From NCBI GenBank assembly GCA_945885545.1, contig CAMCYZ010000001.1, positions 1 through 60,954 on the forward strand: a DNA stretch of 60,954 nt. Direction: 5' to 3'. Positions 18,026 to 48,008 of the stretch are shown in pieces; position 1 is the stretch's first letter; each line of letters opens with the position of its first letter. A program made the position numbers and the translations under genes. Under the pieces are notes generated by a model. That model did no database searches. It saw nothing but the letters and a program-made list of their open reading frames with translations, and was not told the origin of the DNA. The stretch is from Spirosoma fluviale (lineage in GTDB: Bacteria; Bacteroidota; Bacteroidia; Cytophagales; Spirosomataceae).

Positions 18026-19078
18026 ATGAAATTATCCGCTTTTAAGTTTGACCTTCCACATAGTCTTATAGCACAGTATCCACTTGATGACCGCGACGGA
18101 GCCCGCATGATGGTTCTACATCGTAAAACAGGTAAGATTGAGCATAAAATGTTCAAAGATATCGTAGATTATTTTGGAGAAGGTGATGTCATGGTTGCTA
18201 ATAATACCAAAGTTTTTCCAGCCAGATTGTATGGCTCAAAAGAAAAAACAGGTGCTAAGATTGAGGTATTTTTATTAAGAGAACTCAATAGAGAAATGCG
18301 TCTTTGGGACGTATTGGTTGACCCAGCTCGTAAAATACGTGTAGGTAATAAACTTTATTTTGGCGACAGCGACCTAGTTGCGGAAGTAATAGACAACACC
18401 ACTTCTCGTGGAAGAACAATCCGTTTTCTTTTTGACGGTAACCACGAAGAAATGATGCAAGCCGTGTATGAGTTGGGTGAGACACCAATACCCAAAGACG
18501 TGTTGCAAAGAGAAGTAGCAGATGTAGACAGCGAGCGTTTCCAGACCATTTTTGCAGATGTTGAAGGTGCTGTTGCTGCCCCTACGGCTGGTATTCACTT
18601 CACGAAAAATATCGTGAGAAGAATGGAAATCAATGGGGTAGATTTTGCTCCTTTGACTTTACATATTGGTATCGGTACATTCCGACAAGTAGAGGTGGAA
18701 GACCTTACCAAACACAAAACAGACTCGGAGAATTTCTTTATTCCGGAGGAAACCTGCAAAGTTGTAAACGGTGCATTGGATAACAAAAAGCGTGTTTGTG
18801 CCATTGGAAGCACCTCATTAAGAGCCATGGAATCATCGGTTTCGGCCAATGACAGAGTGAAGCCAGTCAACAATGCTTGGACGGACAAATTTATTTTTCC
18901 TCCTTACGATTTCAAAATCACGAACGCCCTATTGACCAACTTTCACCTTCCAGAGTCTATTTTGTTGATGACAACTTGTGCTTTTGGCGGTTACGAAACC
19001 ATTACACAGGCTTATCAGGTGGCCATAAAGGAGAAATACAAATTCTTTACCTACGGCGATTGTATGTTGATTATCTAA
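18026..19078 (+). CDS. queA: S-adenosylmethionine:tRNA ribosyltransferase-isomerase
   Basis: QueA transfers the ribose of S-adenosylmethionine to 7-aminomethyl-7-deazaguanine in tRNA to make epoxyqueuosine, the penultimate step of queuosine synthesis. The 350-residue protein is complete: [17 protein letters not shown] at the N-terminus, DGARMMVL (about 24-31), [12 protein letters not shown] (about 57-68), the [11 protein letters not shown] segment (about 185-195), [15 protein letters not shown] (about 210-225) and [15 protein letters not shown] near the C-terminus. It has its own promoter and a terminator right before ispD. Confidence 0.96.
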
Positions 19079-37896: not shown

Positions 37897-39225
37897 ATGA
37901 GAAAATTCCTTAAGATTTTCGGATATTTCATCTTGATATTGACAGCTTTAGCTTTTGCGAGTATCGAAAAAATTGACCGAACAGCTATAAAACAAACGGA
38001 GCATTTTAAGCAATGGAAGGAATTGGTTAAGGCTCTGAAAATCAAGGAAACAACAGGCGATTTTTCGGCGGGTTGGGCAAAAGTGAACCTTACGCCAAGT
38101 GTACCCGGGCCTATGGCTGGCTATGGCTCTCGAAAAGGAAAAGACTTTGAGGCAGTGCATGATTCGGTTTTTGTGCGGGTTTTGGCCCTAAAAAACAGTG
38201 AAGATACGGTCTATTTCCTTTCGGCTGACATGCTCATTATTCCGCCCAATGTGGTTGAAAAGTTGAAACCTATTCTACAGCAACAGAAAGTTTCTTTGCG
38301 AAATATACATTTTTCAGCTACGCATACCCACAACAGCCTCGGCGGATGGGGCAATAGCCTCACGGGCAGACTCTTTGCAGGTGCTTATGACCCAAAAGTT
38401 GAAGTGGAACTCGCTCAAAAATTTGCTTTGGCCATTCAGGAATCTACGCAAAACCTTACCCCCAGCAAAATATATTATAATGAAGGTGTGGATAAAGAGG
38501 ATATTAGAAATAGATTGAACGTGCCTGATGGTACAATTGACTCAGAGATAAGGTCGATCTTTGTGGAAAGAAACGATGGCTCCAAGGCTAGTTTGATTAC
38601 CTATGGGGCACATTCTACCGTATTGAATTCAAAGACTATCCAAATTTCGAGAGACTATCCGGGTGTCTTACTTGATTCTTTGGAAAAAGAGAGCCTCGAT
38701 TTTGGGATATACTTTGCAGGTGCTGTGGGTAGTATGGGCCCCATAGAAAAAGGCCACGACGATTTCGACGAAGTGCAAAATCAGGCCAAGGGAGTACTTA
38801 AGCATTTGGATTTTACGCAAAAAATGGAACTTCAGAATACCTTGGTGAGTGAATACATTCAATTGCCCATGGGTCACCCAAGTGCCAGAATATCAAAAGA
38901 TTATGCCCTCCGCTCTTGGGCGTTTAAGTATCTTTTTGGCGATTATCCGACTTATTTAAAAATCACTAAAATTGGTAAAACCCTCATCCTCGGTATGCCC
39001 TGCGATTTCTCGGGGGAGCTGATGATAGAGCTAGATGCTTATGCCAAAGCCCAAGGTCTCGATTTAATCATCAGCAGTTTTAATGGCAGCTATATCGGCT
39101 ATGTGGTGGATGACCGACTCTACGACCTCGGTCTTTACGAAAGCAGCACGATGTCGTGGTATGGTTATCAAAACGGTGCATATTTTTCCGAAATTGTGAA
39201 GGACTTGGTGGATAGGGTGAAGTAG
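37897..39225 (+). CDS. Neutral/alkaline ceramidase-like hydrolase
   Basis: This 442-residue exported protein has an N-terminal hydrophobic segment (about 5-22), then a domain like the catalytic N-terminal part of neutral ceramidases. GWAKVNLTPSVPGPMAGYGSRKG (about 55-77) opens the fold, and HFSATHTHNSLGGWG (about 139-153) carries the zinc-binding histidines. At 442 residues it is much shorter than the classical enzymes of about 650-700 and lacks their C-terminal domain. It could act on sphingolipids, which many Bacteroidota make, or on another amide. It diverges from marR and borders the sparse island to its right. Confidence 0.8.
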   Translation: MRKFLKIFGYFILILTALAFASIEKIDRTAIKQTEHFKQWKELVKALKIKETTGDFSAGWAKVNLTPSVPGPMAGYGSRKGKDFEAVHDSVFVRVLALKNSEDTVYFLSADMLIIPPNVVEKLKPILQQQKVSLRNIHFSATHTHNSLGGWGNSLTGRLFAGAYDPKVEVELAQKFALAIQESTQNLTPSKIYYNEGVDKEDIRNRLNVPDGTIDSEIRSIFVERNDGSKASLITYGAHSTVLNSKTIQISRDYPGVLLDSLEKESLDFGIYFAGAVGSMGPIEKGHDDFDEVQNQAKGVLKHLDFTQKMELQNTLVSEYIQLPMGHPSARISKDYALRSWAFKYLFGDYPTYLKITKIGKTLILGMPCDFSGELMIELDAYAKAQGLDLIISSFNGSYIGYVVDDRLYDLGLYESSTMSWYGYQNGAYFSEIVKDLVDRVK

Positions 39226-39660
39226 GTTTTGATTTTAACATGAAGAAGATGAAGGAGTTAAGGACATGAAACTGATAAGAATAGTTTTTTGTCGTTCTTT
39301 TATTCTTATTGGCCTCAAGTTAGAAAAAAAACGGATGTCCTAATTTTAATATAATCAAGATTAATGGCTTTTCTGAAATGTATATTTTAAGGAAGTAGAA
39401 TTTGACGCTTCTGAAATACTAAAATAGACACTAATACATTTCCAAAACTTTGAATACCGCTTGTGTATTTTGGTCCTTGATCGACGTAAAACATACATTT
39501 TTGGAGCATTTATTTAATTCAATTATTTTTATTCAGAGTTTTGTTTCTGTGGCTACAAGCCGCAGGTTGAGTGGAGCGATAATATTTCCATTTCGGATAC
39601 TGCACCATCAGAAATTTACCTGCTTGTTTAAACAGACTTTCAAAAGACGAAAAAGATAAA

Positions 39661-39783
39661 ATGTATTATTGGCATTCATTACCTGAAAACTGGGAATAAA
39701 TGAGATATGAGAATTTCTTAGTAGAAAGAAGAAAACGAATTTCATTGGTACTAAAAGATGCTTACGAGACAATCAGTAAATAG
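39661..39783 (+). pseudogene. Fragment resembling the C-terminus of a DUF262 protein
   Basis: In one frame, with a single stop after codon 12, the sequence reads WHSLPENWE, then MRYENFLVERRKRIS and LVLKDAYETISK. This resembles the C-terminal end of DUF262/GmrS-type restriction-system proteins (L-P-x-x-W-x-x-M-x-Y-x-x-F-L-x-x-R-R). The rest of such a gene is not recognisable upstream. The match is short and made from memory, so it is tentative. Confidence 0.3.
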
Positions 39784-39872
39784 CCAACGCAACTTGCATG
39801 CACAATTAAAAACCGCATAATAAAACAGACAACCTGGCTTTGCGAAGGATATTTCCTTTGTACGTGCGGATA

Positions 39873-40048
39873 GCGGCTTTTAGCCGCAGAAATAAAGTTT
39901 AAAGTAGAATTAAAACTATAAAATATTCCGCTCCGCTTAAAATTCAGACTACGCGGCAGTGTTTTTCGGTCTTAGACCGACACTATAATGCATAATACAT
40001 ATTCTGCTCAAAAATAGCAATACTACATACTCCGGCTCAAAGTGAGCC
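39873..40048. repeat. Cluster of three short perfect hairpins
   Basis: GCGGCT-TTT-AGCCGC (39873-39887), TCGGTC-TTA-GACCGA (39966-39980, extended by AGTG/CACT outside) and GGCTCA-AAG-TGAGCC (40034-40048) lie within 176 bases, each with a three-base loop. The third is followed by a T-rich run and could end transcription. They are spaced about 90 and 70 bases apart and differ in sequence. Confidence 0.6.
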
Positions 40049-40722
40049 ACTTTTGTTCAATTCATAGGTAATGATTTTATTTTAAGACCTTAAGGCTTAA
40101 GTTTCGCTCGGCCGGGGAATTTTGTGTTTTTTAAGAGCTTTTTATTCTTTTCTAAGAGCTTTTTATTTTTTGTTAACCAACATCCACATTGCTCAAAAGG
40201 CTCAAAATCAATGCGTAGAAAATACAATTTTTATCAAAAAGTCAATTACTCTAAACCAAAATTGGACAGATTAAGTAAATGTAAACAATTAAATATTTTA
40301 TTTTCAGTAATTTGGCTTTTTGAATTTCGATTTGTAGTACACAGGGGAGTTGACTTTATGGTCTAAGTAACAGTACATTTGTAAAATAAGAAATGATTCT
40401 TCAAATCTAAAAGTTTGCTACTTTACATAAAGCCCCAAAAGGCACCAAATTCTAAATAAACAGAACCAAATACAGTAATTTAACCCAAATTTGTAGTAAA
40501 GTCGGAATATATATCCTTGTAATCCATTGTTAATGAGTTGCTTATGATTATTGCTACTTGATGTGGGTTAACGCAATGATATATAGTATTTAACACTAAG
40601 TGGTTTTGTGGGTGTCTCATAATTAGTATTTTATTTTTCTCAGAGACCTTATTTATAAAAGTAAACCTGATGTTAAATAGTGGACTAGTTTGAAGAAGTA
40701 CAAAAATAGGGGAGAGGATAAT

Positions 40723-42243
40723 TCAAAAAGGGAAATCATCAAAACTAGAGGTCATCGAATCATCTATGTAAACAAAGCTATTCAGGTTGACGCCCAAATA
40801 TCCCAACTTCAAATCTCCACATTCATGCAAATCAATTATTTTGTCATTTTCTATATAAAACAATAAGTTGATGTAATTACCCGTATTATTGCCTACAAAT
40901 GCAAAACCCTCTTGACCTTTGTTACAGTTTTGACAACTACTTTTTACGGAATAAAAAAAAGTGTCTTTTTGTTCTCTAAATTTATTGAAAACAGTTTCTA
41001 AATTATTTAAAAATACTTTTTTTGGAAAATTCTGATATTCAGGTCTATCTAACAAACAGTCAAGCATTTCGGTGTCCATAGTTTGCAGGTAATACTTCAC
41101 AGCAATATAAAGATGGTCATCGTTTTTTGGTTTTAGAGGTGGCTGAAGGCCTGTTTTACTTTCAAGATGATCTGCATGCATGCCATTCATTTTCAAATCT
41201 TCAAGTTGAATTTTCAAGAAATCAATCCCTTTTAATTCCTGATGGCTAAGATTAGTAGAATTTCCCCATTCCAAAAACGGTAATTCGCCAATTATTTCTG
41301 TTATAGTTGAATTCTTAAAGTTTATCTTTAATTGTAAATCATTTAAATAACTATTATTGCTTTTAACCAATCGCAGCTCTAAAATATCTGCCATATCTCT
41401 GCCTTCTTCGTCACAAGCAATTCCATAATATGCGGGTCTGTAAAGTGACATAAATTTGGTAGCTAGCCTTTCAAAGTAATGGTTTACTCTGAAATCATCA
41501 AATATTGGTCTATAATCTCCGCCTCGTTTTTCAATAGCCCGAGATAAATTTTGTCCTATTAAAATGGCAATCTTATACTTTTCGGCCAATAATATTAACT
41601 TTTGCGAAATGGCCTCCACTCGGGCTTTACCAAGGCTTTTGAAAAATGAATGGATACTATCCAAAACAAGAACTTTGATTTTATTTTCGAAGATTTGCGT
41701 TTCACAATAGTTTATGAAACCATCATATTCAAAATCATTATTACCTAAATATAAATTTTGTTTTTTTAGAGCATTACTTGCATTCTTTAGCTTATCAATT
41801 TCAGTTTCAGTTAATTTTTTTTCAAAAATATCTGTAAAAGGTATGCCTGTCTTGGTTGCTAAAAATTTATTAAGTAAATAGGCAGGGTTTTTACTGAAGT
41901 CAACATATAGCACTGAATGTCCCAAAGCTAACATATTACTGGATAAGTGTATAAGCAATTGAGTAACGCCCATTCCTGGCCTACCCCCAAATATCCATAC
42001 TTCACCTTCGTTTAGAGGTCCAAATTCTTTCTCAAAGGCTTCAAAACCTATCTTGATTTTTTGTGGTATTTTTTCAGGATTACGCTCCAATTTCCGGAGA
42101 ATATCAGCGGCCTTTTGAGCCTTGGGTATTAAAGCTTCGTTTTGGTTATTTATCAATGCTGATATTTCAGCAAGTTTTGCTTTTGCAGATAATGATTCAT
42201 CTGATAGGATTTTTTGGAGAGATATTTTTAAGTTTGGTTGCAT
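40723..42243 (-). CDS. DnaB-helicase paralogue with dead ATPase site and cysteine-containing C-terminal domain
   Basis: This 506-residue protein has a central RecA-type domain like the DnaB C-terminal domain: GPLNEGEVWIFGGRPGMG (75-92), Walker B VLVLDSIHSF (191-200), and QNLSRAIEKRGGDYRPIFDD (231-250) matching the DnaB L-S-Q-L-x-R-A-V-E-x-R-x-x-x-R-P-x-L-S-D segment, then LYRPAYYG. The Walker A lysine is valine (V93) and the catalytic-glutamate position after strand 2 is serine (DFSK, 115-118). The DnaB primase-binding N-domain is absent, replaced by a 60-residue helix. The last 170 residues are a separate domain with CQNC near 436 and FVGNNTGNY. It has no gene partner and lies between two gene-poor stretches. 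Confidence 0.75.
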   Translation of the reverse strand: MQPNLKISLQKILSDESLSAKAKLAEISALINNQNEALIPKAQKAADILRKLERNPEKIPQKIKIGFEAFEKEFGPLNEGEVWIFGGRPGMGVTQLLIHLSSNMLALGHSVLYVDFSKNPAYLLNKFLATKTGIPFTDIFEKKLTETEIDKLKNASNALKKQNLYLGNNDFEYDGFINYCETQIFENKIKVLVLDSIHSFFKSLGKARVEAISQKLILLAEKYKIAILIGQNLSRAIEKRGGDYRPIFDDFRVNHYFERLATKFMSLYRPAYYGIACDEEGRDMADILELRLVKSNNSYLNDLQLKINFKNSTITEIIGELPFLEWGNSTNLSHQELKGIDFLKIQLEDLKMNGMHADHLESKTGLQPPLKPKNDDHLYIAVKYYLQTMDTEMLDCLLDRPEYQNFPKKVFLNNLETVFNKFREQKDTFFYSVKSSCQNCNKGQEGFAFVGNNTGNYINLLFYIENDKIIDLHECGDLKLGYLGVNLNSFVYIDDSMTSSFDDFPF

Positions 42244-42864
42244 TTATTATTAATGTTTCTGAATGAAGTGTAAATTATTAAGAAGTAACAGATTTGTCAA
42301 GCATTTCAAGCATTTATTAGCTAAATTTCAAGAATTTAGAGGTCATTTACGCCAATCTAATTTTATTTTTCAGCCCAAATAGCGTTGATTCTAGCTATGT
42401 CTTTCTGAAGGCATTGACCTTTGTGTAAGTGTGTATTTCAGTCGTCAATTGAAGTAAAACAAAATGAATTTACCATGTAAACTCTTTTTTACTATCCAAA
42501 ACAAATTACTCTATATGATGCTAATCCCGGTAGCTATCGAGACGCTTTTTACACGTATGGAGCAAATGCTCTATACAGAGCAGCCGTTCGCCGCTGTGAG
42601 TTTTTAGAGTTTTAATAAAAACTAATTAAACGACATTGATTTAACATTTTTGAACTAATAGTTTTAGGGGTTTCAAAGTTTATCAAAGGATTGTTCAGAA
42701 AGATAAGAGACAAATTGCAATTATTTACAATATTGTAGTCTATTGATAATCAATATTCAATGAATTTTATTATTTAAAATTTAGTAGTTGGTTTTTAGAT
42801 TACTCGGAAGCTTTAATTGAAATGACATAAAAAAAGATAAACAGCAGAGCTTTGTTTAATTTTC
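42244..42864. other. Non-coding stretch behind the DnaB-like start
   Basis: AT-rich, with no gene recognised. It contains the truncated third MITE-like copy (42590-42642) and must hold the promoter of the DnaB-like gene (minus strand); TTGACA reads at 42300-42295 but no matching TAnnTTTG is seen. Confidence 0.5.
42590..42642 (+). repeat. MITE-like element, copy 3 (right end only)
   Basis: GCCGCTGTGAGTTTTTAGAGT (first 20 bases match the GGCCGCTGCCGTGAGGTTTTAGAG part of copy 1) is followed by the right end TTAAACGACATTGATTT. The left half is missing or unrecognisable. Confidence 0.45.
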
Positions 42865-42898
42865 AAAAAACACCCACCCCAGAAACCAGAACGGGTGT
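42865..42898 (-). terminator. Terminator on the minus strand below the tandem-repeat array
   Basis: Read on the minus strand, ACACCCGTTCTGG pairs with CTGGGGTGGGTGT (several G-T pairs) around TTT and is followed by TTTTTT. It is the first strong terminator downstream of the orphan membrane-protein gene, so that transcript could include the whole repeat array. Confidence 0.6.
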
Positions 42899-43010
42899 CA
42901 GGCTACTAAATCCACACAACTTTCATTTTTATCAAATATCAATTATTAAATAGTTCTAGACATTTTATACAATTCCATAAATTCGCCATTTGTATCCGGA
43001 GCAGTAAGAT

Positions 43011-43332
43011 GAATCGATACCAAATGCAATGGCAGCTGCCTCTCGACTCCGCTCGAGGTGACAGTGTAAGTGGTGGCTCGAGGTGATAGGGTTGGTTGTG
43101 GCTCGAGGTGATAGGGTTGGTTGTGGTTCGAGGTGATAGCGTTATTGGTGGTTCGAGGTGACAGAACAATGTTATTTTTTAGTTTACGGGCAATGGAGCA
43201 AGTTTTGAATCGATACCAAATGAAATAGTAGCTGCCTCTCGACTCCGCTCGAGGTGACAGGGTTGGTAGTGGCTCGAGGTGACAAGGTTGGTGGTGGCTC
43301 GAGGTGACAATGTAAAGGGTTGCTCGAAGAGA
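43011..43332. repeat. 25-bp tandem array in two duplicated blocks
   Basis: The core CTCGAGGTGACA (with CTCGAGGTGATA and TTCGAGGTGA variants) starts at 43052, 43077, 43102, 43127 and 43152, then again at 43248, 43273, 43298 and 43323: exact 25-base steps within each block. Each block is introduced by the same leader, GAATCGATACCAAATG through AGCTGCCTCTCGACTCCG, and the blocks are 196 bases apart. The first unit of each block also forms the hairpin CTCGA-CTCCGC-TCGAG. There are no variable spacers, so this is not CRISPR. Open frames across it are repeat translations, not genes. Confidence 0.85.
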
Positions 43333-43458
43333 CAAAATAAGGTACTTATTATAAGGTTTTTATAAAAAAATCGGGTTTAAGGCTGCTGTTTAGTGGCCCT
43401 TGGTCTGAAGACCAGGAACGGGATTGTTTCTTTATCTTTGAAAATCACAAACTCATTT

Positions 43459-44379
43459 TTATTCTACAGCTTCCTCACTTTCTTTAGCCAGTTGTTTTTC
43501 AAATTTATTGTGAATGAAAAGTATTAAAAGGCCAAATAAAATAGCTGAAACAATCAATATCGTATTAATGATTCCACTAACAGAAAAAGATATTCGAATT
43601 AATATGGTTGAAATAATAAATCCCGAATTTCGAATAACTTTATGGAACTCGTCGGTGTGAAAAAATGAAAATAACAACAATATCACATCAGCAATAATCA
43701 AAATATTGAAAAAATGTTCAAAGAAAATATTGTTGATATTTTTGAAAGAAATAGCCTTGTTCTCAAGTGGTTGAAAGATTCCAATACTCCAGTTAAAAAA
43801 TGAATATAGAGCAATTATTATAAGTATAGGAACCAAGGCTGTGGCTATCCATTTTTTTGCGTTGATAAATTTCGAAATACTTGAAGATTGATTTTTGTTG
43901 TTTTCAAGAGTTCTATAAACCTTGGTCCGTTGAACATGAAATAGATAAATCAAATAGAACAATAAGACCGATGCCACTAAATCATAAGTAAACTGCAAAT
44001 CATCTTTAATGTTAAACCAATCAAAAGAAAGTGATAAAGCTGAAAGGTCTTTGAATAATCTTCTTATAATGATGAGGGCAATGATTTCATACTGCTTTGA
44101 GATATATATAGAAGTTGACTTTGGGAGGTAGTAAACTAAAAGATATACCTCATAAACTAATATAAAAGAAAATGGGGTATAAATGGCCGCAATAGGATTT
44201 TTTAATAAGTTAGAGGGTTCCGCAATGTCAACAATATTAAGTTGTATCAATCCAATGATTAATAAGTGCGTTATAAAACTCACTAAAGCAATCCATAGTA
44301 TGATCCTTTCACTCCTTTCTTTTGTTTCTTTTGAAAGAAATTTTTGATAAAGTTTTTCCGATAGTTTGGATAAGTCCAT
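43459..44379 (-). CDS. Orphan multi-spanning membrane protein
   Basis: This 306-residue protein has a charged amphipathic N-terminus (MDLSKLSEKLYQKFLSKETKERSERI) and about eight hydrophobic segments arranged in pairs through residues 27-295, ending in a charged tail (HNKFEKQLAKESEEAVE). I recognise no family and see no catalytic motif; it could be a channel, a sensor or a phage-defence membrane effector. The frame is open to an ATG at 44430, which adds 17 residues; 44379 gives the more natural N-terminus. A TACCTTTG box lies upstream. It is alone between long gene-free stretches. Confidence 0.65.
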   Translation of the reverse strand: MDLSKLSEKLYQKFLSKETKERSERIILWIALVSFITHLLIIGLIQLNIVDIAEPSNLLKNPIAAIYTPFSFILVYEVYLLVYYLPKSTSIYISKQYEIIALIIIRRLFKDLSALSLSFDWFNIKDDLQFTYDLVASVLLFYLIYLFHVQRTKVYRTLENNKNQSSSISKFINAKKWIATALVPILIIIALYSFFNWSIGIFQPLENKAISFKNINNIFFEHFFNILIIADVILLLFSFFHTDEFHKVIRNSGFIISTILIRISFSVSGIINTILIVSAILFGLLILFIHNKFEKQLAKESEEAVE

Positions 44380-44468
44380 ATTGTTTTTTTTTGTAAAATC
44401 TACGATTGATAATGACCACTTGTAATGCATGTATATCCGCTAAGAATTAGACACATCTACAGCTATAA

Positions 44469-44476
44469 CAAAGGTA
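44469..44476 (-). promoter_or_regulatory. -7 box upstream of the orphan membrane protein
   Basis: On the minus strand TACCTTTG matches the -7 consensus exactly, as in the queA promoter. It supports this isolated gene being transcribed. No good -33 TTG is visible. Confidence 0.45.
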
Positions 44477-44479
44477 GAC

Positions 44480-45660
44480 AATCAAACCCATTAATTGTTT
44501 TTAATTTTGGAGTAAAATATTTGTTATCAATATTTTAAGTACATGCCGTTTGATAAAAAACAACTCCGTTTGAAGTTCGGGTTTAGTTTTTTGACGAGTT
44601 CCTTTATACCCCAAGGCTGTATGGACAATGGGGCTGTGGTCATTTAATTGTATTCAAAAAGATTGGTTATAAACTTTACACCATACCTGCTTCTGGTTTT
44701 TCTAATTGAATGCCATAAAAAGGATGATTTTTACATGCATTTACTGCTTTTTTTATCAAATATTGGGGGATGAATTGCAATACCTGTACTAGGATTGGAA
44801 ATCTCACTTTTAATGTATTATCGTAGATGCTTCGGATTTAAGATCCAATGTCTTTTATTTAAGGTTGTTTTAACTCTAAAACCGCACGGCAGCGGCCTAC
44901 CTAAATCACTCTCCAGAAGGATAGGGACTTTAAAAAGGAGCATAATTTAACGACATTGATTTAAGGCCTAAAAATTGGTTTGAATAATGGATCTCTCCAT
45001 TATTATATTTTTCCAATAAAAAAAATGAGACTAGATTTCGCCAGATAACAGTAGAAAAGGTTTAAAAGACCTCAATAAAATTAGCTACTGACGTTTAGAA
45101 ATTTCTAATAACAACAAAAAAGCGTCAAAAGAACCAACTTACCTTATAGCAGATAAAAGCTAGTAATGGCTTTCAATTGTTATAATATGAATCTTCAAAA
45201 AATTGAGCTGCTTTTACATGATTTCTTTGGTTCAGCATGTTTAAACCCAAAAAACGTATTATGAAATCTGCTACAAAATAAAAGACGAAGGCGAAAGCCG
45301 TTGCCTCAAATCAATTTCCGAGCCTCTGTAAACCTATTTCGATAGGTTTTTCGATATTCATCATAGCTTTTTTGCCAAATTTTATTTCGCCAGAATGTTG
45401 GGGTTAAATATTGATATTTTGGACGAAAAGAGTTAAGACAAACGCCTAGAGAATGGTTTTAGCTCCATTGCGAATTATTGAGGAGGCTGTGGAATTGGTG
45501 TAATTCAATTATTGATTATCGGTTTTATTCTGATTTACGGCATAAAGATTGTCATGATTTAAAGTCTTAAAAATAAACGACAGTCAATAAGACAAACCTA
45601 TCCCCACGCTGATTCTTACGGTTTAATAACTGTTTGTTCGTGCATTAATAAGTACCATAA
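44480..45660. other. 1.2-kb non-coding stretch, right part of the sparse island
   Basis: No gene recognised on either strand. It contains the reversed MITE-like copy (44843-44962). Around 45480-45560 a short hydrophobic reading (GCGIGVIQLLIIGFILIYGIK) ends in a stop but has no start or partner. Confidence 0.55.
44843..44962 (-). repeat. MITE-like element, copy 4 (reverse orientation)
   Basis: About 120 bp. The reverse complement shows the same order as copy 1: AAGTCCCTATCCTTCTGGAG, then GGCCGCTGCCGTGCGG and TTTTAGAGT. The ends are ATCCAATGTCTTTTATT on the left and TTTAACGACATTGATTT on the right, an imperfect terminal inverted repeat like that of copy 1. Opposite orientation and near-equal length argue for a mobile unit. 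Confidence 0.6.
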
Positions 45661-45662
45661 GC

Positions 45663-45697
45663 AAAAAAAACGACAGTCCCAGTTGGAAACTGTCGTT
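45663..45697 (-). terminator. Terminator of maeB
   Basis: On the minus strand AACGACAGT pairs with ACTGTCGTT (9 bp, 11-base loop), followed by eight T, 20 bases past the maeB stop. Confidence 0.85.
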
Positions 45698-45716
45698 CTA
45701 AATTTAAATCAGAGTT

Positions 45717-48008
45717 TTACTTCTTCACCGCATCAACTACCGAGATGGCCGTTTGGTTAACGATTTCTCTCACCGAGGCACCGAGTTGTAACACTTGAAC
45801 AGGCTTTTTGAGCCCCATCAAAAGTGGTCCGATTTTCTCTATGCCAGCTACTTCTTTTAGTAAGTTGTAGGCAATGTTCGCCGAAGAAAGATTTGGGAAA
45901 ATTAAGGTATTGGCTGGGCCATCTGCAAGGTCTGAGAACGGATGATTTTCTTTCAAAAGCTCCGTGTCGAAAGCCAAGTGGGCCTGCATTTCTCCATCTA
46001 CAACCATGCCTGGGTGTTTTTGCTTCAATATTTCTACCGCCTTACGCATCTTGATAGGTGCGGGGCCTTCTGGTACTGAACCAAAGTTGGAGTAAGTCAC
46101 CAGTGCAATTCTGGGCTTAATATTGAATTTTTCTACCTCTTTGGCGGCTAATTCGGTGATTTCTACCAGTTCCTCAAAGTTAGGATCAAAATTTATAGTG
46201 GCATCCGCAAGAAACAATGGCCCTTTTTTGGTCATCAATATATACATACTCGATATCTTCTTCACCCCTTTTTCTGGTCCGATTATCTGCAAGGCTGGAC
46301 GAATAGTGTCAGGGTAGTTTCTGGTCAAACCTCCCACCATGGTATCTGCAAGGCCTGTTTCTACCATCAGCGATGCATAGTAACTTCTGCGGGTTACGAA
46401 ATTCATGGCATCGGGCTTTGTCAAACCTTTTCTTTTACGTTTATCAAAAAATAATTCTGCAAATTCGGCCAATCTGACTTTTTCAGCATCGTTTTTGCTT
46501 TCTTTCGGGTCTATGATATCAATATCCTCAGGTAGCGAAATGCTGTTTTCTTCTAAAATACTTTCGATGAGTTTTCTATTTCCTAAGAGTATCGGATAGG
46601 CTATTTTTTCTTGAATAACCTGCTGAATGGCTTTTAAAACGGCAAGGTTTTCGGCGTCGGCATATACCACTCGTTTTGGGTTTTTCTTGGCTTTGGTCAT
46701 AATGGCCTTGGTGAGGGTATTGTCCAAGCCGAGTCTTTTAGAAAGCTGCGTTTCATAGGCGTCCCAGTCAGTTATGGCAAACTTCGCCACACCTGTTTCC
46801 ATGGCTGCCTTTGCTACCGCAGGGGCCACCGAAGTAAGTAAGCGAGGATCTACTGGCTTTGGAATGATGTAGTTTCTGCCAAAACTCAAGTTGGCTTCGC
46901 TGTAGGCCATGTTTACAATATCTGGCACTGGTTTTTTGGCCAATTCAGCCAAAGCCCTTACTGCTGCCAGTTTCATTTCTTCGTTTATTTCGCTAGCTCG
47001 CACGTCTAAGGCACCTCTAAAAATGTACGGGAAGCCCAAAACGTTGTTAACTTGGTTGGGATAATCCGAGCGACCTGTGGCAACAATAATGTCCTCACGT
47101 GCATCCATGGCATCGTCGTACGAAATTTCGGGCGTAGGGTTAGCCAAGGCAAAAACAATACAATCTTTGGCCATGGATTTTACCATTTCTTGAGAAAGGA
47201 TGTTGCCTTTTGAAAGTCCCACAAAAACATCGGCTCCATTAACGGCTTCTGCCAGTGTAGTTTCAAATGGCATATTGCTATTGGCAAATTCTATCTTTTT
47301 GCCGTCTAGGTTTGTTCTGTCAGGATGTATAAGTCCTTTAGAATCAAACATAAAGATGTTTTCCTTTTTGGCACCTAAGGCATTATACAGCCTTGTACAA
47401 GAAATGGCCGAAGCACCCGCACCGTTGATGATGATCTTGACTTTGGCGATGTCTTTTTCTACCAATTCCAAGGCATTTAATAAGGAAGCCGACGAAATAA
47501 TAGCGGTTCCGTGCTGATCATCGTGCATTACCGGAATATTCAATTCCTTTTTAAGTCTTTCTTCTATTTCGAAACACTCAGGAGCCGAAATATCCTCTAG
47601 ATTTACACCGCCGAAGGTAGGCTCCATTATTTTCACTGTACGCACAAACTCGTCCACGTCTTTGGTGTTAAGTTCTATATCAAAAACATCAATATCGGCA
47701 TAAATTTTAAAAAGTAAGCCTTTACCTTCCATTACAGGTTTGCCGGCAAGAGCACCAATGTCACCAAGACCCAAAACGGCCGTTCCATTGCTTATAACGG
47801 CTACCAAATTACCTTTGGCAGTATATTTATAGGCATCCTCGGGATTGGCTTGGATGGCCAAACATGGCTCAGCTACACCAGGGGAGTAGGCCAAAGAGAG
47901 GTCTCTTTGATTTGCATATTCTTTAGAAGGTATAACCTCAATTTTTCCTGGCCTGCCTTTGGCGTGATATTCGAGAGCTTCTTCGTTAAGCGTTTTGTCG
48001 TTGTTCAT
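45717..48008 (-). CDS. maeB: NADP-dependent malic enzyme with phosphotransacetylase domain
   Basis: This 763-residue MaeB-type fusion converts malate to pyruvate, CO2 and NADPH. The N-terminal malic domain has [15 protein letters not shown] (about 39-53), HDDQHGTAI (about 161-169), the NAD(P)-binding loop NGAGASAIS (about 195-203) and [14 protein letters not shown]. The C-terminal 330 residues (from about 430) resemble phosphate acetyltransferase but in this fusion class act as a regulatory domain, commonly responding to acetyl-CoA. The gene is monocistronic with a strong terminator. It marks the right edge of the sparse island. Confidence 0.94.

Follow-up and report, generated by a model that had tools for sequence, protein, structure and literature searches.

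What can a DnaB-like protein still do once the residues that drive a replicative helicase have been replaced, and where does such a protein come from? This question is raised by a gene of Spirosoma fluviale located at positions 40723-42243 (minus strand) of the window, by which we mean the whole stretch of 60,954 nucleotides analysed in this study. The open reading frame starts with ATG and runs over 506 aa without an internal stop. A first-pass annotation had described its product as a DnaB that kept the helicase fold, lost two ATPase residues and the primase-binding domain and acquired an extra C-terminal domain, and had hinted at a role in phage defence. In our preferred reading, to which we assign a probability of about 0.45, it is a detached, non-hydrolysing pseudo-helicase of a retron family that would work by binding, with phages or plasmids as its probable opponents.

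The core of the protein clearly belongs to the DnaB type. Pfam DnaB_C matched aa 63-308 (E 5.3e-24; 85.4 bits, cut-off 27) and the best PDB DnaB chains aligned over about 240-247 residues, which agrees with the RecA-type core described earlier. The NCBIfam helicase models gave only weak matches (70-78 bits against cut-offs of 385-596), the best equivalog scores being 74.3 bits of 596 and 70.4 bits of 385 for the DnaB model TIGR00665; neither cut-off was reached. Residues 20-306 aligned to positions 135-422 of TIGR00665, and therefore the linker-helix region is retained. It lies at aa 39-54 (42082-42129, minus strand, as are all features of the gene), where the AF2 model has a helix with block pLDDT of 60-67. 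Positions 1-134 of TIGR00665 remained unmatched and the model has three helices before aa 60; the N-terminal primase-binding domain is absent, as had been claimed.

The AF2 model of the protein reached a mean pLDDT of 76, with blocks of 72-96 over aa 61-290; it was built from 35 aligned rows with DnaB rows among them, an input that favours a DnaB fold as the outcome. Its top structural match was E. coli DnaB (9oa1_D; Z 29.7, rmsd 2.4, 253 residues aligned). For some DnaB chains the aligned range also included the linker helix, as in E. coli DnaB 7t22 with model residues 39-324. Pfam, pLDDT and the fold match place the DnaB-type RecA core at aa 61-318 (41290-42063), the predicted fold being subject to the DnaB rows in the AF2 input.

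The active-site columns were placed by solved DnaB chains, five Bacteroidota DnaBs and 28 viral DnaBs, and we take the functional names of these positions, including Q-switch, arginine finger and ssDNA loop, to apply here. In the degenerate Walker A motif GGRPGMGVT (aa 86-94; 41962-41988), V93 (codon GTT, 41965-41967) stands opposite K216 of 2r6a_A, and S117 in DFSK (41893-41895) stands opposite E241; we take K216 to be the Walker-A lysine and E241 the catalytic glutamate. These are the two replacements that had been noticed before. Further changes were found at the Q-switch (N232; 41548-41550) and at the arginine finger (N296, KNR to KSN; 41356-41358), the latter placed by alignment with the five Bacteroidota DnaBs. 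In 29 aligned rows, 28 of viral DnaBs and one of an Algoriphagus DnaB-like protein, the lysine occurred in all 29 and the glutamate and the Q-switch glutamine in 28 each. Moreover, two of the three ssDNA-loop residues are changed (E382 to V253 and G384 to H255), with R252 kept. The Walker-A threonine (T94) and the Walker-B aspartate (D195; Walker B region at 41656-41676) are retained. As the motor loss affects four distinct positions of the ATPase site and the open reading frame is intact, it is not a single random hit. The protein keeps 22 of 37 near-invariant core columns, a count that fits decay as well as a new function, compared with 37/37 in a relative linked to a reverse transcriptase (L070) and 30/37 in a relative with the same Lys-to-Val change (L084). 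With its host's DnaB it has 58 of 257 core residues in common.

Closest to the core are short Bacteroidota proteins that consist of DnaB_C without an N-domain. In a class-level search 242 of 395 genomes matched the core at E 1e-15, and most of the matches listed were ordinary DnaBs of about 500 aa. Among these listed matches, 12 short proteins without the N-domain scored E 1.6e-25 to 1.4e-42, against 2.0e-24 for the best ordinary DnaB; four more (L054, L055, L084 and L085) scored E 3e-24 to 9e-19, inside the range of ordinary DnaB. Complete short relatives measure 289-368 aa. The 16 loci of short relatives were taken from this search, and at least one further short frame (G1065:C34) was left out. 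A reverse transcriptase (RT) gene follows downstream on the same strand in 14 of the 16 loci, after 172-265 nt in all but L085, where the gap measures 630 nt; in L076 and L081 no RT lies next to the short DnaB-like gene. An order-level search of 390 genomes added L142, a further short member that likewise has an RT, and brings the count to 15 of 17 loci. In the RT-bearing loci (L070-L075, L077-L080, L082-L085 and L142) the order is DnaB-like gene, ncRNA, RT. Besides, in 149 near relatives every match at E 1e-20 except the gene itself was a frame of 495-552 aa, as in ordinary DnaB.

All five RTs tested matched Pfam RVT_1, and retron RT models of PADLOC were best for four of four, with types XI, I-C and XII in first place. 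The PADLOC models for retron partners did not match any of the five DnaB-like partners tested; a weak match to mad8 was obtained for four of these five and also for the window protein. The stretch between the DnaB-like gene and the RT is conserved as well. Nine gaps align with a mean identity of 67%. A helix of ten base pairs joins their two ends, four of these pairs carry two-sided changes that preserve pairing, and a hairpin further inside is conserved too. R1, a covariance model trained on these nine gaps, recovered the held-out gaps of L142 (E 1.1e-15), L077 (6e-6), L071 (7e-4) and L085 (0.0035) and was marginal in L084 (0.05) and L083 (0.12). A conserved, covarying ncRNA is thus found in 13 of the 15 RT-linked loci and is marginal in L083 and L084. 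Rfam found only tRNAs in six of the retron loci. Since partner, ncRNA and RT are all in place, we call these loci retrons by their anatomy.

Retrons, which are built around a reverse transcriptase, are best known for phage defence, and their partners define the mode of action. Their main classification is reportedly that of Mestre et al. (2020). Sixteen subtypes, whose partners range over ATPases, RNases and transmembrane proteins, are described in passages of one source, and these passages name no DnaB among the partners (PMC13405049). Likewise, no DnaB-like retron partner was found in PADLOC or in the parts of the full-text literature searched, which included PMC8867640, PMC12548924 and PMC4828956. 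As the closest relatives of the window protein are putative retron partner genes, the earlier hint at phage defence gains support.

In the trees the window protein falls among the RT-linked rows, with fork supports of 81/72, 87/79 and 91/89 and on a long branch. It is a member of the retron-linked DnaB-like family by its sequence and its missing N-domain, with moderate support given the long branch. The part of the first-pass annotation that saw an inactive helicase therein is consistent with the retained fold and the lost residues; its assumption of a DnaB that had lost parts did not hold, and an origin from a DnaB-like retron gene took its place. Grouping with ordinary DnaB, as expected for an ordinary DnaB gone bad, was rejected (AU test, p 0.004). 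A clade with L084, which would imply a shared origin of the Lys-to-Val change, was not rejected (p 0.21 and 0.26), nor was one with the solo DnaB-like genes of Algoriphagus described below (p 0.19), and therefore we do not claim that the losses are independent.

The family itself shows how far the motor has been loosened elsewhere. Of 17 informative rows, 15 have the Walker-A lysine; L083 and L084, both from one genus, read GMGVT instead, like the window protein. The column of the catalytic glutamate holds E in five rows, D in 11 and N in one, and 10 of the 17 rows have R at the arginine finger. From these counts a loosened motor is common in the family, and the window copy represents the most extreme loss seen. 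V93 as a family trait is ruled out by the 15 relatives with lysine. According to the first-pass annotation, homologues that mostly keep the lysine would mark V93 as a chance decay event; they do keep it, which removes the family signature, and a lone random hit does not describe the protein either. By eye, the RTs of the retron loci L083 and L084 carry a long extra segment, and the DnaB-like gene of L083 is interrupted by a stop. A replication gene of plasmid or phage origin was also considered: matches came from 734 plasmid and 289 phage records, none over more than 80% of the query and all below 60% identity, and this candidate was rejected. The window gene had no match in viral contigs, and further viral sequence scans were likewise without a match.

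The added C-terminal domain extends over about aa 375-476 (aa 375-475 at 40819-41121) and contains C437, C440 and C475. AF2 modelling of the C-terminal part alone, from six aligned rows, gave a mean pLDDT of 60, with blocks of 68-89 for aa 381-480, and three helices and five strands. With a second aligner, the 50 rows shown were mostly NTF2/SnoaL/ketosteroid-isomerase-like proteins or designs of this kind (Z 5.9-8.2), and PBP2a/PBP5 chains also appeared among them. Foldseek returned nothing under E 0.001 for this model and a BFVD fold search nothing credible. We assign the domain with moderate confidence to a predicted NTF2-like, cone-like alpha+beta fold. It has this predicted fold in common with NTF2/SnoaL-like proteins, and the C-terminal part had no Pfam match in sequence; one relative of the domain matched Tim44 weakly (Pfam, E 0.09), and a PDB profile search gave nothing credible. 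The two cysteines of the CQNC motif (aa 437-440; 40924-40935) are invariant in 14/14 rows of one alignment and 6/6 of another. To our knowledge, a C-x2-C pair with a third cysteine is not typical of NTF2/SnoaL-like proteins. Residues 401-466 matched the phage family phrog_17712 weakly (E 0.0007), the only PHROGs family matched.

Relatives of this domain are few. A phylum-level sequence search found it in eight of 395 genomes at E 0.01, the own genome included and three matches very weak, and a profile found it in 16 of 390 order-level genomes at E 0.001, namely the own genome, 13 strong and two weak ones. Small stand-alone forms of 132-141 aa exist, as the first-pass annotation had stated: L016, L017 and apparently L087 from Crocinitomicaceae, in which the frame is partly masked. 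Judged by the identity of their loci to named ones, the 13 strong genomes belong to Algoriphagus and one neighbour genus, where the domain is N-terminal in proteins of 338-391 aa. None of the C-domain frames in the 14 loci of these genomes matched the DnaB-like profile. Of the scans of genome contigs, one gave no match and the other yielded five C-domain loci without a DnaB fusion. A second fusion of DnaB and C-domain was found in none of our searches, and the fusion is known from one copy.

Nevertheless, the two parts occur near each other in Algoriphagus. Two of the 14 loci have a separate DnaB-like gene of 291-292 aa close to the C-domain gene, at a distance of 2.9 kb in L153 (A. limi; L153:4128-5006) and 0.7 kb in L162 (L162:7220-8095); in L165 only a borderline match (E 0.00098) in a 514-aa frame was seen. 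Such solo DnaB-like genes occur in four of the 13 C-domain genomes, one of them as a 125-aa fragment and two on other contigs. By a rough estimate, two of four inside a stretch of 18 kb is far above chance, but shared descent of the two is possible and defence genes tend to cluster in any case. The genes of L162 and L153 keep the lysine and have arginine in the glutamate column. By eye, the fragment L170 also has arginine there, and L169 keeps GKS and has no glutamate at this place. Between L162 and L153 we obtained a dN of 0.26 and a dS of about 2.4, the latter near saturation, which indicates purifying selection. Also close to C-domain genes are a sigma-54 activator that weakly matches RtcR (L089) and, in L148, L161 and L165, WYL-like regulators. 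Regulators of the WYL type were seen in the vicinity of DnaB-like retrons as well as of C-domain genes (L072, L078, L148, L150, L161 and L165). In A. kandeliae the Cas10 and RAMP genes of a CRISPR locus lie downstream of the C-domain gene (L088:4968-9077). Small proteins of 112-114 aa that look alike by eye stand near the C-domain gene in two species (L088:4465-4803 and ORF 8 of L162).

In its own genome the window gene sits in a lineage-specific, AT-rich island (39330-45662), which is absent between the same flanking genes in three congeners. The flanks are a ceramidase-like gene (37897-39225) and a malic-enzyme-like gene (45717-48008). In G003 these genes adjoin, with about 180 bp in place of the 6.3 kb; the two stand side by side in G001 and G007 as well, and lie far apart or on different contigs in five other congeners. 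G002, 77% complete, had no match to the ceramidase. Nine congeners lack the window gene at E 1e-20. Within the island GC drops from about 0.38-0.43 to 0.29-0.38, and much of it is non-coding. The only other sizeable frame (43459-44430, minus strand) encodes 323 aa, by eye probably a membrane protein, without a Pfam match. A relative with 27% identity lies near the C-domain gene of A. kandeliae (L088) and a weak one near that of L034; the frame is no more than a candidate partner of the window protein. At 43010-43332 a 127-nt repeat, with three copies listed of which two overlap, is accompanied by low-complexity frames and is probably non-coding. A promoter scan yielded 14 hits against 10.5 expected. 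The host also encodes a complete DnaB (L003) and another piece of a DnaB (L002).

Beside the window gene we found neither an RT or ncRNA nor any recognised defence gene. In a tblastn search of the window with 15 proteins of the RT cluster the best hit (E 0.009) lay at 18143, a long way from the gene. The sole RVT_1 match of the genome (L086:1129-2562, contig 142) is broken by a stop and looks by eye like a group II intron protein. R1 detected no ncRNA in the whole genome or the window, and with filters off over the island the best score was 13.4 bits (E 0.09); as R1 was only marginal for two of six held-out positives, a diverged ncRNA at this site could be missed. Rfam gave no match over 39000-46000. 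In contrast to its retron relatives, whose RTs are nearest to PADLOC types XI, I-C and XII, the window gene is not part of a DnaB-like-ncRNA-RT locus as far as these searches reach.

How might such a protein act? The N-terminal 320 residues would derive from the DnaB_C-only family that usually stands upstream of ncRNA and RT in a Bacteroidota retron. The window copy would then have departed from the retron and gained the NTF2-like domain. All four of its residues for catalysing or sensing hydrolysis are lost, with the fold apparently kept. ATP-driven translocation would then not occur and the protein would act by binding. Its DnaB-type module might form a ring of its own, or bind to or mix with a replicative helicase or its loader, and in this way might engage a host, phage or plasmid replisome and block or titrate it. 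In retrons, control is thought to be supplied by the RT-msDNA complex; here the NTF2-like domain may have taken over this control by sensing or by binding a partner. A role in conflict is favoured because the relatives stand in putative retrons and the added domain is often found in defence-like neighbourhoods. Counting against this reading, the RT-linked relatives mostly keep the lysine and a carboxylate, and the active family may thus consist of enzymes. The missing RT, ncRNA and recognised defence gene at this site, the single copy of the fusion, the four short relatives that score like ordinary DnaB and the moderate tree support also speak against it.

If the protein instead works without any contact to a replisome, the RecA core would serve to oligomerise or to bind a ligand and the NTF2-like domain would do the work. 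The C-domain that stands alone in L016, L017 and apparently L087 fits such a scaffold or sensor, as do the partly lost ssDNA-loop residues, and NTF2-like domains often oligomerise or bind ligands. We consider this somewhat unlikely, since the linker-helix region and the DnaB-type core are retained and the C-domain is found near DnaB-like genes in the two Algoriphagus loci. Drift is rather doubtful too, in which case a retron partner deprived of RT and ncRNA would be decaying and its frame would be open by chance. The single copy, the 15 of 37 near-invariant columns that have changed, the long branch and the largely non-coding island suit an orphan of this kind, and so do L083 and L084, two retron loci from a single genus in which the DnaB-like gene shows Lys-to-Val and, in L083, is broken by a stop. 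Yet 506 codons are open, the added domain is in frame, the core fold is predicted with confidence, and a parallel dead-site family in Algoriphagus is under purifying selection.

Two narrower alternatives concern the motor itself and the target. Poisoning of the host DnaB hexamer by entry as a subunit, the narrow form of the decoy or poison idea in the first-pass annotation, is a special case of our preferred reading. In its favour are the kept DnaB fold and linker-helix region and the lost motor residues, but the protein has only 58 of 257 core residues in common with host DnaB and belongs to a separate clade; because of the former, we regard this as less likely than the broader reading and as improbable in itself. 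A protein that is still an NTPase through substitute residues, for instance D115 together with another lysine, is very improbable. T94 and D195 are kept and D115 lies two residues before S117 on the same predicted strand (aa 111-115), whereas lysine, glutamate, Q-switch and arginine finger are all replaced. Going beyond the preferred reading, one could imagine a Bacteroidota retron type with a DnaB-C ring partner whose ring has repeatedly been detached, its motor killed and an NTF2-like sensor coupled to it, giving an RT-free immune module that stalls replisomes of the host or of invaders through binding as a pseudo-helicase; we regard this generalisation as speculative and doubtful.

Compared with DnaB, the window protein has the RecA-type core fold, the linker-helix region and the Walker B aspartate in common with Pfam DnaB_C and TIGR00665, but lacks the N-domain, has lysine, glutamate, glutamine and arginine finger replaced, carries the extra NTF2-like domain and stays far under the curated cut-off. 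With retrons, it has in common that its DnaB-like part belongs to the family of the upstream gene in such loci. A helicase with lost ATPase has a likeness in the PriA pseudohelicase of Deinococcus radiodurans, for which loss of ATPase activity, retained DNA binding and interaction with DnaB are described (PMC4504706); PriA is a different helicase, with a role in replication restart. DnaB-derived pseudo-enzymes in defence were not found in the literature, as far as its partial coverage extends. The findings link a replicative-helicase core to retrons, and with a DnaB-like partner the replication fork itself would become the site at which they act. The loci with DnaB-like gene, ncRNA and RT represent a putative kind of retron, for whose partner PADLOC gave no matching model. 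Moreover, the window gene and its Algoriphagus parallels are natural motor-dead variants in which action by binding alone could be tested.

A further short DnaB-like protein was observed on a plasmid of Hymenobacter sublimis (NZ_CP095850.1; L141:3923-5080). No adjoining RT was seen at this gene. Its Walker-A lysine is replaced by cysteine, the glutamate by glutamine and the arginine finger by alanine. In the tree it stands near ordinary DnaB with weak support, and its motor loss is perhaps an independent event.
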